From positions 248,001-312,000 of the forward strand of contig JBAMJV010001330.1 of assembly GCA_037951105.1 (NCBI GenBank): a DNA stretch of 64,000 bases, read 5' to 3'. Positions 6,801 through 61,000 of the stretch are shown here, piece by piece; position 1 is the stretch's first letter, and each line of letters begins with the position of its first letter. Origin of the DNA: Echinarachnius parma. Taxonomy: Eukaryota > Echinodermata > Echinoidea > Clypeasteroida > Echinarachniidae. The position numbers and the translations under genes are program-made. Below the pieces are notes generated by a model that had not been told where the DNA came from, made no database searches, and was given only the letters and a program-made list of their open reading frames with translations.

Positions 6801-6870
6801 AAGTGATGTGCTCTTTGGCTTTTTGATGCTGAACACACTGGATTAATACCTTGCAGGGAAACATTACACA
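6801..6870 (+). other. 5' UTR part of the first coding exon
   Basis: A pyrimidine-rich tract ends in CAAACAG at 6800, a good splice acceptor, so the start-codon exon probably begins at 6801 and is preceded by one or more non-coding exons. An in-frame TAA at 6844-6846 closes the frame upstream of the ATG at 6871, so the coding region does not extend further 5'. The upstream exon itself could not be placed. If transcription instead starts within this segment, the acceptor would be fortuitous. Confidence 0.45.
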
Positions 6871-8112
6871 ATGGATGATATGGATCACCTACAGACAATG
6901 AAAGCGTTGATGCAAGGACAAGTTGCCACTGGAGTTGCCAATATGAGGCATATATGCAGGAACTGTTGCCCGTCCAGGAGATGGACCATCTTAGCCATGC
7001 TCCTCCTTCACATTTTGTCTTCGACACTGACGTCAGCGTCGGCGTATCCACAATTCACAGAGCAGAGTCCAGGATCTTCCTTTCAGACAATAGCAATGGA
7101 CGCTCAGACGGGAACCGTCTACATAGGTTCCGTCAACAGCGTGTACAAACTTGACAGTAATCTCACCCAGAGTGCGCAGGCCGTCACGGGACCGAAGTGG
7201 GACAGTCCAGATTGTGTGCCTCCAAGGAAGGAAAACTGTTCGCAGAACACTTTGATGGATAATGTCAACAAGGTGCTGCTGGTTGATGGCGATCGCCTGA
7301 TCGTCTGTGGAACAGTGTATCAGGGTGTGTGTGACATCCTGTCTGGAAGTTCACTGCAGGTCCTGTGGGATCAGTCGATGACGGAGATCTCAGTGAATAC
7401 AGAGTATGGCGCTACAGTGGCCTTTCTTAGTGACGGCCCAAACAACATGAGGACTATGTATGTGGCATCGTCTTCATCCGAATGGTTTCGGTCGAACTTA
7501 TGGACGCTATCAAGCAGACAGGTTCCCACCGACTACCAAAGCAGTTCCCTCTTCAAGGTTTATAGCGATGGTGGGCAGTCAACATCTCCAACGTCTATCC
7601 AAATCCCTGTGGAAACCATCGGCAAGGCACCTCCATCGCAACCTTTCAACATCAGCTACGTGTCGGGCTTCGCAGCCAATGGTTTTAGCTACTTTGTCGC
7701 AGTTCAGCCCGAATATTATGACACGCCCGGCCCGCACTTCACCAAGCTTGCGCGCGTTTGCCAGCAAGACGATCATTTCTACTCGTACGTTGAGCTACCG
7801 CTCCGATGCTACGTCTATGACAGCACTGGGAGGACTCTGTACAACCTTGCGCAGTCTGCTTACGTCGGCACCGTGGGGGCTAATGTTGGATCCTCAAATC
7901 TGAGTCCTGATACGAAAGTTCTCTACGTTGTGTTCTCTCGGTCGGATGGGTTAACCATCAACCCTACTGCGGAGTCAGCAGTTTGCATGTACCCGCTCTC
8001 TCTGATAGACCAGGTTTTCTGGGAAAGGAGGCTTGGGTGTGCCATGGGTGTGACAGACAGGACAGATATCGACTGGCTGGGGTCTGCGGGGTGTGGGACA
8101 TCACCCAGCATG
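6871..8112 (+). CDS. PLXNB: Plexin coding exon 1: signal peptide and most of the Sema domain
   Basis: It encodes residues 1-414. ATG 6871 has A at -3 and G at +4 and follows an in-frame stop. A hydrophobic stretch at residues 39-58 ending in ASA is the likely signal peptide, with the mature protein starting near Tyr59. The Sema beta-propeller starts near residue 68 (AMDAQTGTVYIGSVN). Plexin-typical cysteines are seen at 115/123 (DCVPP...C), 146/154 (CGTVYQGVC), 297, 313 and 372, with the motif FYSYVELPLRC at 303-313. N-glycosylation sequons lie at 97, 122 and 260. The open frame runs four codons past the donor ATG|GTGAGT at 8112/8113 and then stops, so splicing is required. The 38-residue stretch before the hydrophobic core is long for a signal peptide; Met25 (6943) would give a more typical one. 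Confidence 0.95.
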
Positions 8113-8596
8113 GTGAGTTGGACATGATCAGGATCATATTAATTGGATTTAGTAATAATTTATTATATGAAAATGTCTTGTTTAGATTCATTCCTACAAG
8201 CCTAAGATACTGTCGTTGTCATAGTGAGCTTACCCAAAACCTTGCTGGGACATACATGTAATCCATAATTGCAAGGGTAGCGGAGAATGTATTCATAAGA
8301 AGTATAATAATATGTATAATCCATGTAAATTTACAAATTAATAAACATTTTTGAAATTGTTTTGTTTTTTTGAATTCATCAACACAATCAATGCAACAGG
8401 CCCTAGATATTGTTACCAGGTGCCAACAAATAACCCTCCTGGTGGTTGGGTACCCATCAATGCAAGGGTGGTTTATAGCGATTCCAGCAAAACCATGATT
8501 ATGATGTTTTACCCACCTTATGAATCGTATAATATACATTAATTTATCAAATAATTATTAATTGTGACTAATTAAAATGCCTCTATATTTGAATAG
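8113..8596 (+). other. Intron 1 (484 bases)
   Basis: It runs from GTGAGT to GAATAG. It holds only the exon 2 relic at 8378-8488; the rest is AT-rich with no other recognisable feature. Confidence 0.92.
8378..8488 (+). pseudogene. Decayed tandem copy of plexin exon 2 (exon relic)
   Basis: It aligns without gaps to the first 37 codons of exon 2, which lies 219 bases downstream. About 28 of 37 residues are identical (shared INTINATGP, PTNNP and VPINAR), and DNA identity is about 77 percent by hand count. The similarity continues a few bases into the intron (TTTGAAT), but where exon 2 has AG the copy has TC, so the acceptor is gone. After the VYSDSS segment the similarity stops: the second half of the exon and the donor are missing. 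The frame is open to about 8542 although the copy cannot splice as it stands. It may be a former alternative exon or a duplication that was never used. Confidence 0.88.
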
Positions 8597-8788
8597 ATCA
8601 ACACAATCAACGCAACGGGTCCAGGATACTGTCATCGGGAGCCAACGAACAACCCTCTTGGTGGTTCGGTACCCATCAATGCGAGGGCGGTATACAATGA
8701 CCAGTCCTACCTGACGTCCATCGCAGCCACGGTCCACCTTGGGCAGACGGTCATCTTTGTTGGAGATGTGGATGGAAACCTGAAAAAG
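8597..8788 (+). CDS. PLXNB: Plexin coding exon 2: Sema domain, late blades
   Basis: It encodes residues 415-478, phase 0 at both ends, between acceptor TTTGAATAG and donor AAG|GTAATT. It contains a Sema segment with the plexin-like pattern LTSIAATVHLGQTVIFVGD (residues 454-472), corresponding to the human plexin A1 segment LTAVAAYDYRGRTVVFAG as remembered. Cys426 and Cys408 of the preceding exon are likely disulfide-bonded Sema cysteines. A decayed copy of its first half lies in the intron just upstream. The following intron is 12.7 kb. Confidence 0.94.
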
Positions 8789-9329
8789 GTAATTTATTTA
8801 TCAATTCAAGAAATACTGCTTAACACTGCCAGTGTAATGAAGATGCCAAGCGTTCGAAACAAGCAAAATCTTTGTGGTTTTTGGTTCTTTCTATTTGATT
8901 GCTTAGAACAATAGCAAGAGGACAATATTAAATGCTTTCTTCAATTTAAAAAATATAACACACTTCTTGTCTAGTTATATATGTAATGATTCCTTTTTAT
9001 ATCGTCTCTTTGTTGAAATTGATTTAAAAAGTCAGTAGGAAGAAAAATTGAAGAAAGAAAGAAAGAAAAAAAAGTCAGGAAAAATTGAAGGGACAATTTA
9101 CAGACAGGAGAAAGAATTGCGAAACAAACAAAATGCAAAATAAGATCAGTAAGATGATCAAAGATTTGCACTTTTTGAGGTCATTCTGGCCTGGACTCTG
9201 CAATCAAGTCTTTCCCACCCCCACCCTCTCTTCAAAGGGAAGGTGGCTACTGTCTGCATGTAAACCTCAAAAGTCAATGGTGTGGTTTGGACTTCCTGCA
9301 TCAATCATAAATCAGTTTTAAAAATAAGA

Positions 9330-22964: not shown

Positions 22965-23600
22965 TGACACATGAGAATGATTATTTTCTCTTTACATGTT
23001 TATCTTTCTAAGATCACTCAATCTTAAAGTGTTTTGAGTAGAATGTTACATACTCCATGCCATATGAGAGCAGTAATTATGCTTTATATCTCAATTACTA
23101 CATGAGAACTTACATTTTCCCCCCTTGAAGCTCTATTTATTCAATTCACTGTTGGTATTTACCTTGAGGTAAAATGTTAGACAACTGCGCCACATGAGAA
23201 TGATAATTATGTTTTTATCTGTGTTTCAGTTCATGGGAACTTAATTTTCTTGCTATAGTTAAATTACTTCATTCTCAGTTTTCACCTTGAAGCAATTTCT
23301 TTTGAAATGCTAGATACTTTGTCACATTAGAAGGATAATTATGTTTTTATCTGTGTTTCAGTTCATGGGAACTTAATTTTCTTGCTATAGTTAATAGTTA
23401 TATTAGTTCATTCTCAGTATTCACCTTGAAGCACTTTCTTTTGAAATGTTAGATACTTTGTCACATTAGAAGGATAATTATATTTTTTATCTGTCTGTTA
23501 GAACATTAAAAAAATGCAATTTTCCCTTTTCTCCCTATAGATAGATCAGTTCGCTATTAGTAGTTTACCTTGAAGCAATTTTTCTTTCCAAAAAGATTCC
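22965..23600 (+). repeat. Minisatellite, about five units of 130 bases
   Basis: Units share GATAATTATGTTTTTATCTG, TTCATGGGAACTTA, TTCACCTTGAAGCA and GTTAGATACTTTGTCACATT. The two central units are nearly identical; the outer ones are more diverged. Confidence 0.85.
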
Positions 23601-51274: not shown

Positions 51275-51757
51275 ACTGCCCTAGATCTGGCGGGATGTTC
51301 CCATGCAACCATAGCCTTCCTTCCAGCGCCAATCGATATATCTTTTTAATGACGTTGGCAAATTATATTAACTCTGGGTCTGACATTACAGTATAAAGCG
51401 ATTAATGATCACTTTGCACAAATCAATAGTTTGATTTACCGTCCCTGGCCCAGATAAAGCAGCGTTTTCCCATGCAACTCTAGCCTAACTTCCAGCCCTA
51501 ATCAATAGATTCTTTGTAATAACATTGGTAAAATTACATTTACTGTGGGTCTGACATTACAGTATTTACCAATTAATGATCACTTTGCGCAAATCAATAG
51601 TTTGATTTGCTAACCCTGCCCTAGATCTAGCTGGATGTTTCCATGCAACTTCAGCCTAAATTCCAGCCCTAATCGATAGATGACATTGGCAAATTGAATT
51701 GATTGTGGGTCTGACATTACAGTGTTGTGCGAGTAATTATCACTTTGCTTAGATTTT
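51275..51757 (+). repeat. Tandem repeat, three units of about 167 bases
   Basis: Each unit runs CCCTAGATCT/CCCAGATA, CCATGCAAC, CTTCCAGC.C.AATCGATA, GGGTCTGACATTACAGT, ATGATCACTTTGC and AATCAATAGTTTGATTT. About 80 percent alike by eye. Confidence 0.88.
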
Positions 51758-58469: not shown

Positions 58470-61000
58470 GTGTCTGGTCTGCATGATTAAAAATTGGAAT
58501 TACATCCGACTGTATCACCTTTCTATATAAAGTGTACCATCATTTACACTCCTTTTTTTTTTTGCACATGAGAAATGCTTTTGATATATCGGTAATTCAA
58601 TGGAATAATAAATATATAGTGTCACCTTAATGACCAGTATTTTGTAAGAATGGCTCAGGAAATGTGTTAGATATATGCTATTGATATATCATAATGAAAG
58701 GAAATATACCCCAGTATATCATCTCTATATTAATGTGGCAATGTTTATGAGTTACATAAAACATGTACGGTATCAGTTAGCATGATGAGATGAAATTTAA
58801 TCACATGTGTCGCCTTTATAAAATCATAACAGAGTTTATGATATCCTCTTTTAACAATTTGCAGGGCTGCCCTTAACTTTGATTCCAATAATCACAACTG
58901 GATAACATATGTCCACGTTGTCACCCCTGTACAAGCATACCAATGTTTTATATTAATTTTTTAAGAAATTGACTTACATTCTTTTATGGATGGCAGATGA
59001 AATGCACTCGGTATGCCATCAATAATTAATTGGATAACATATCCATACATGTGTGTCACCTTTCTCAAAATGTACCAAACTAGACAAAATACCATTAAAT
59101 TTCATAATGGGTTGAAATACGTATATCCATGTGTGTGTGTGTCAGCTAACCCCCTTTTAAGAGTTACCCCCTTAAAGAATCTTGTGATAAATTGCCCTTG
59201 ACTTCATATGGGGTGAAATATATTCACGTGCCTCCCTGTCCATCAACCATTCTGAAAGTGTAGTGTTTTACCCCCTACGAAGGATTTGAGATGAAATGCC
59301 ATTGACTTTGAAGTGGCAGAAGTACTCATAATGGGTTGAATTAGGAGCTTTTTGAGTTCCCCCAGTAACAAAAATAGTATTAATATTTACTAAAGGGTGT
59401 AACACATAGTGGGTGAACCTTTTAAGCAATGTTTTATGAATCGTAATGAATCTAAGATGAATTCCCCGTGACTTTAATAACAAAAAAGGTAGGGATATTC
59501 ATTGGTTGAAAATTATCCACGTGTGTGCCGATCTTTCTGAAAGGGTACCAATGTTTTATGAATTTTGAGAGCTACCACCCCCCCCCCCCTTGAAGAATCT
59601 TGTGATGAATTCCATTGACTTTGAAAGGCAGATATACTAAGAACGAGATGAAATGTATCCATGTAGTATTAATCTTTCTTGAAGGGTTGCAATGATTTAT
59701 GAGTTATTGAAATTCCCTTTTAATGGAATATATTATATGTTATACTAGTGATGGGATGAGATATATCTGTGCCTCTCTCGACCTTTCTGCAAATATAACA
59801 ACGTTTTATAAGTCACCCCTTTAAGAATATCTATACATACTATGGCGATCCATGAAATATATTCATGTATGTCACCTCAAGTGTGTAGAAATGTTTTATG
59901 AGTTCCCCCCTCAATGAATCTGAAATGAGACACCTTTGATTTTTAAGTGGCATATATCCACCATTAATACTCATAATGAAATGCAATACATATCTACAGT
60001 TTGTCTCTCGACCTTTATGCAAATGTTGCAATGATTTATGAGTTCCCCCTTTAAGAATTAGATATACTTTCTTGATGGGTTGAAATATATCCACATGTAT
60101 GTCTCCTCTAGGGGTGTGTAGAAATGTTTTATGAGTTCCCCCCTTGAAGAATCTGAAATGAGATGCGCTTGGCTTGATTTTGAAGGGGCAGATATATACT
60201 CCATTAATACTCAAAATGAGATGAAATATATCCATGTGTGTGTGTATGTATATCAATGTTTTGATTTCCCTCTGATTACTGTTGTGATCTGATGAAATAT
60301 ATTCACGTGTGTCACCTCTCTAGAGGATCAGCAATGTTTTATGAGTCCCCCCTCAAAGAAATGGAATAGATCTACAGAATGTCTCTCGACCTTTATGTAA
60401 ATGTAGCGATGATTTATGAGTCCCCCCTTTAAGAATAGGTATACTGCCTGGTTGGGATGAAATATATACATGTGTGTCGCCCTCTTGGAGTGTGCAGAAA
60501 TGTTTTATGAATTCCCCCCTTGAAGAATCTGAAATGAGACGCCCTTAACTTTGAAGTTGCAGATATATTTGCCATTAATACTCATACAGAGATAAAATAT
60601 ATATCCATGTTCTTGTAGACCTTTCTGAAAATGCATATATCTGTCTATTATCAATATTTTATGAGTTCCCCCTTTAAAAAATAGATACACCACTGCCATG
60701 GGATGAAATATATGCATGTATATCACCTCTGAGTGTGTAGAAATGTTTTATGAGTTCCCCCCTCAAATAATCTGAAATGAGACTCTCTTGACTTAGAAGT
60801 GGCAGACATAAATACCATTATTACTTATAATGAGTTGCCCCTTTAAAAAATAGATACATGTATGCTATCATTTTGGGATGAAATATATGCACGCAGCACA
60901 TGTCTTTCAATCTTTTTCTGAAAGTGTAGCAATGTTTTATGAGTTCCCCCCTCAAAGAACCTGAAATGAGACGCCCTTGACTTTGAAGTGGCATCGGAGC
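58470..61000 (+). repeat. Large degenerate minisatellite array in intron 4
   Basis: Over fifteen recurrences of ATGTTTTATGAGTTCCCCCC or ATGATTTATGAGTTCCCCC, each with GAATCTGAAATGAGACGCC, CTTTGAAGTGGCAGATAT and GATGAAATATATCCATGTG. Two half-unit types alternate, giving a higher-order period near 235 bases at 59890-60740. Minus-strand frames here (FKGGTHK repeated) are repeat artefacts. It ends 420 bases before exon 5. Confidence 0.9.

Follow-up and report, generated by a model that had tools for sequence, protein, structure and literature searches.

According to an Exonize-related paper, exon stretches that recur in the introns of their own gene may point to exons that are unannotated or degenerate, and partial, inter-boundary and intronic duplication events affect more genes than full-exon ones. 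Exons that are duplicated in tandem and spliced in a mutually exclusive manner have been described in PMC9013439 and PMC9741552, of which the former cites tandem duplicated exons in about 10% of animal genes. Here we describe a partial exon copy in a predicted plexin-A-like gene of Echinarachnius parma. As in the intronic exon matches of the Exonize-related paper, a stretch of a coding exon recurs in one of the gene's own introns; unlike those matches, it concerns the 5' half of the exon only, the acceptor is lost, and the match of 37 of the 64 codons may miss the Exonize coverage threshold. With mutually exclusive tandem exons, as presented in PMC9013439 and PMC9741552, the locus shares the adjacent same-orientation homology and a symmetric phase of the working exon, but the copy is incomplete and possesses neither an AG nor a donor. 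In a literature search on plexins and mutually exclusive exons, no duplicated plexin exon appeared by title among the matches listed, and a search joining vestigial exon, exon duplication and intron gave no match. A truncated partial exon copy in an intron is a known kind of which the plexin exon-2 case is one more member.

The window, i.e. the whole stretch of 64,000 nucleotides that was analysed, corresponds to C1329:248001-312000 in a genome of 1.2 Gb in 14,790 contigs; coordinates without a contig name refer to the window, and all features given lie on its plus strand. The first coding exon of the plexin, a large one, is represented by an open frame of 426 codons (6847-8127). Its coding part, from the first ATG of the open frame (6871), which we infer to be the start codon, to the donor, spans 6871..8112, comprises most of the Sema domain (Pfam Sema, 31.8 bits with a cut-off of 23.7) and ends in phase 0 at ATG|GTGAGT, position 8112. 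The best solved-structure match of this frame is Plexin-A2 (E 1.4e-46), the matches to Plexin-B1 being much weaker (E 2.6e-29 at best). The working coding exon 2 (8597..8788; 192 nt, 64 codons, phase 0-0), which also belongs to the Sema domain, is bordered by AG|ATC and AAG|GTAATT, and exons 1 and 2 align in one piece to fly Plexin A (E 1e-30) and also to vertebrate plexins. The Sema domain of the host gene is closest to those of plexins, and matches to PF08337, the cytoplasmic plexin domain, are present at C1329:325183-330648 on the same strand as the Sema exons; judged from order and strand, these matches are probably part of the Sema-bearing, plexin-A-like gene. In a plexin paralogue (contigs C1659/C1223), an intron lies at the position and in the phase of host intron 1, and no exon-2 copy was found in this paralogue intron. 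Elsewhere in the genome, Sema matches on contig C1411 (642,605 bases), at least 11 in about 450 kb (106676-554120), all share one strand, and many of them have an open frame of 340-415 codons; they apparently make up a plexin-like gene cluster in tandem arrangement. A similar gene, on C9607, was compared with fly Plexin A and matched it with an E of 4e-19.

An initial annotation, made from the sequence of the window, had claimed that the first 37 codons of exon 2 are duplicated 219 bases upstream with an open frame, an acceptor AG turned into TC, the second half missing and about 12 of 21 changed codons silent, and we found each of these elements in place. The truncated copy, homologous to the start of exon 2, is located at 8378..8488, and the direct repeat 8369-8475 / 8588-8694 comprises 107 nt with 82% identity, no gaps and a spacing of 219 (self-blastn E 1.6e-23). 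A genome search with 8340-8560 as query matched exon 2 at E 8e-22. The alignment clearly exceeds chance, failing which homology was to be considered refuted: it scores 119, whereas none of 1000 dinucleotide shuffles scored above 27. At the protein level 28 of the 37 residues are identical, and the 21 differing codons consist of 12 silent and 9 non-silent ones. Codons 36-37, which hold 5 of the 26 nucleotide differences, probably lie past the true end of the homology, leaving 33-35 codons as the safe extent. The reading frame of the copy runs on to a stop at 8540-8542. The 9 nt of intron before the copy (8369..8377) equal those preceding exon 2 except for the last two, TC (8376-8377) instead of AG (8595-8596), and this holds for both haplotype contigs. 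Homology stops around codon 35-37, beyond which the sequence cannot be aligned to the rest of exon 2: no trace of the second half was detectable (p 0.69 and 0.98, the former being the shuffle p for 8476-8536 compared to 8695-8790), and the copy contains no recognisable counterpart of the working exon 2 donor. The spacer between the copy and the working acceptor (8491..8587) shows no significant homology to 8272-8368 or 8710-8806. The copy is as such a significant same-strand homologue of the adjoining exon within the neighbouring intron, covers only part of that exon, and is probably a truncated tandem duplication. All 7 CpG of working exon 2 are lost in it, 6 of them as TG/CA, and its observed/expected CpG ratio is 0.17, compared to 0.31-0.45 in introns and 0.75-0.81 in exons.

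Contig C4886 carries the same copy with the same TC and a single difference in 111 nt, at 8487; C1329 and C4886, which are 96.7% identical across the block containing the copy, appear on this ground to be two haplotypes. The presence of the copy in both contigs rules out an assembly error or a single-allele event. In the genome only four matches to the copy's stretch were retrieved, two per contig, one being the copy and the other exon 2, and the intron just 3' of exon 2 matched itself only; by this search, which skips very common words, the copy is no dispersed repeat element. The low haplotype divergence of the copy (1/111) was dropped as a sign of constraint, since the neighbouring intron is equally low (3/263 and 0/108, compared to 434/10,345 or 4.2% at noncoding sites overall). 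The residues of exon 2 are the same in both contigs, its five haplotype differences being all silent and all located at or beyond 8704. About 206 bases of intron 2 (8795-9000) are absent from C4886, and the genome search gave no other match to them.

When local direct duplications are defined as pairs of at least 60 nt with a spacing of 50-1000 and an E of 1e-10, the window contains 13 such loci, whereas 10 dinucleotide shuffles yielded none. A stretch of 189 kb from the contig has 38 loci, the exon-2 copy included, and the duplicated pairs cover 8.1% of the bases compared to 0 in 5 shuffles. Identities range from 68 to 98% and spacings from 59 to 855, and the 82% and 219 of the copy fall inside these ranges. 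As local duplications are common here, duplicates that touch an exon are to be expected. Larger, noncoding local repeat arrays are also present in the window (59774-60993, 51276-51748 and 23034-23494), with units of about 130-600 nt that are 75-79% alike.

Because short local duplications are common along this stretch of the contig, an ordinary relic is most likely and is preferred over a lost alternative exon, and we consider it probable that the copy is a local duplication of the 5' part of exon 2 only, non-functional from the start. The lack of a copy in the paralogue intron and the CpG losses of the copy also favour this reading. By a short local duplication, this 5' part, with homology over about 107-113 nt, would have come to lie in the intron preceding the exon, the 3' half and the donor being left out. 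In its simplest form this would be a tandem duplication with a 219-nt unit, composed of about 106 nt of intron end and about 113 nt of exon start, in which only the downstream unit would continue into the whole exon. The upstream copy, having no donor, would never have been a usable internal exon, and would since have lost its acceptor AG and decayed, with splicing using 8597; alternatively, an untethered copy of a piece of about 107 nt would serve as well. In this scenario, the limits of the unit, its origin in tandem by slippage or unequal exchange, and the absence of function are inferred. The 219-nt unit fits the spacing of the copy exactly. It also predicts homology between the two intron halves (8272-8368 and 8491-8587), and here the evidence goes against it, since none was detected: they align with a score of 32 (null mean 24.8, p 0.18), and a score that low would have a probability of 0.02-0.15 if they were homologous at 0.17 substitutions per site per branch; a seamless 219-nt unit according to the right-hand model (8491-8587 compared to 8710-8806) was rejected (p 0.92). 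The neutral divergence from the codon fit amounts to about 0.48 substitutions per codon per branch, or about 0.16 per site, compared to the 4.2% between haplotypes, and the duplication therefore predates the haplotype split, exceeding it several-fold in age, and should be carried by relatives as well.

A parallel case was found at the exon encoding PF08337 positions ~264-320 (start C1329:329487), which is preceded by three partial copies in its own orientation, starting at C1329 positions 328828 (c1), 328953 (c2) and 329296 (c3), the array including the working exon extending over C1329:328828-329640. Copies c2 and c3 keep the acceptor AG and the first ~110 nt of the exon, c1 is missing the initial ~20 nt and contains a stop in frame, and the 3' part of the exon is absent from all three. 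The exon-2 copy is similar in being upstream, in the same orientation and without the 3' part of the exon, but the cytoplasmic array differs from it by having three copies, two of them with AG, a number that varies between haplotypes and one copy with an inverted-repeat insert. This insert, with inverted ends gcccgttgcagaaagagatacaa ... ttgtatctctttctgcaacggggc, splits c2 at C1329:329063-329223 and is like a small inverted-repeat transposon. Including the working exon, C1329 contains 4 units and C2377, presumably the other haplotype of the array region, 3; since the number differs, such duplications are active here. By analogy with this array, the exon-2 copy may be a duplication running from the intron end into the exon. 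In three of the four copies tested (c2, c1 and the middle copy of C2377) the fitted omega of 0.97-1.15 fits neutrality. For c3 it is 0.15-0.21 (2dlnL 5.3-8.0), with acceptor and frame kept and no good donor visible, and c3 may be a relic that was refreshed or else serve as an alternative terminal exon. Exchange between copies may be one route to its low omega and use of c3 another; as c3 reaches this value without a good donor, a copy with a low fitted omega has not necessarily served as an internal exon. An N is common to c3 and the working exon of C2377, at a position where the working exon of C1329 has an S. A comparison of the paralogue with the cytoplasmic exon gave one short match only.

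The initial annotation had offered two readings of the silent excess, a once-used alternative exon or constraint on the working copy alone. On the former, the whole of exon 2 would have been duplicated and alternately spliced, after which acceptor, second half and donor were lost. Exchange of the two exons would keep the frame, exon 2 being 192 nt in phase 0-0, and the silent excess, an omega of about 0.35 and the absence of stops and gaps agree with it. The pairwise omega of copy and exon 2 is 0.30, which differs from 1 (2dlnL 6.9) and not from 0.5 (1.27), and to that extent constraint on the working copy alone would do. Against the latter stand a two-branch codon fit and a simulation. The two-branch fit gives a copy omega of 0.17-0.56 over 18 settings, with 2dlnL compared to 1 of 1.3-6.0, varying with extent and settings; around the fitted value of about 0.35 the one-sided bootstrap p is 0.053-0.057 (33 codons, 300 runs). 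In a neutral-copy simulation, which is cruder than this fit, 12 silent codons out of 21 were reached in 0.1-0.7% of the runs (p 0.001-0.007; 12 settings) when mutations were split equally, in at most 0.1% with 0 or 25% of the mutations on the working branch, and in 2-6% with 70% on that branch. The open frame says little, because 48-67% of the neutral simulations keep one. Gaps were compared with 32 control duplications (of 37 others found, 5 outside 72-92% identity were dropped), from which 3.4 gaps were expected and none seen in the copy (P 0.034); only 1 of the 29 controls with at least 10 mismatches is gapless. Transitions account for 13 of 19 changes compared to 47% in controls (p 0.054). 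Each of these tests is weak and small (33-37 codons), and the silent excess, low omega and gaplessness hint at either past constraint or exchange with the working exon. The two-branch test was rejected as proof of function, being dependent on extent and giving a still lower omega for the donorless c3.

What a former alternative exon would further need is missing: there is no second half and no donor, and nothing shows that a complete exon ever existed. A whole-exon duplication with an eroded second half was rejected, as the 3' half of the exon gives no signal. Mutually exclusive pairs have acceptor and donor in both copies, similar length and the same phase, compared to which the copy has TC in both contigs, no donor counterpart and at most 37 of 64 codons. 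The copy also carries L to P and S to W replacements inside a PLGGS stretch that, in the PDB plexins shown, mostly reads PLGG followed by S, T or E. The low omega of c3 without a good donor argues against this reading too, as do the loss of all 7 CpG and the intron-like CpG content of the copy, and local duplications are common. In its favour, 8537-8587 is weakly similar to the intron following exon 2 (8789-8860; shuffle p 0.002-0.005, with limits chosen post hoc), which a duplication of the complete exon with its flank would explain. We therefore regard a former mutually exclusive exon as unlikely, and find it equally hard to credit that the copy is the remnant of an alternatively spliced Sema exon 2, once under protein-level selection, in a gene that repeatedly duplicates exons; support for the earlier suggestion goes no further than a hint.

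It is likewise doubtful that exchange with the working exon (gene conversion) partly refreshed a dead copy, an event by which the first 107 nt of the copy would have stayed similar, ungapped and rich in silent changes. The sharp end of the similarity and the N shared by c3 and the C2377 working exon are as exchange would give, but the 107 nt hold no haplotype difference common to copy and exon, and the same copy is present in both contigs. A live element, i.e. a cryptic or poison exon or a decoy acceptor, is very improbable: the T-rich tract is kept and the first AG after it (8398..8399, context CAACAG|G, with no other AG in 8302-8399) could serve as acceptor, but its use would shift the frame and lead to a stop at 8496-8498, and nearby candidate donors (CAG|GTGCCA at 8420) are weak by eye.

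As an ordinary relic, the most likely reading, the copy matters little in itself: a duplication-rich genome seeds its introns with partial exon copies, which keep open frames for a time and may be mistaken for lost exons. Were the weak hints of constraint borne out in relatives, an alternative ligand-domain exon would have been gained and lost in a guidance receptor.
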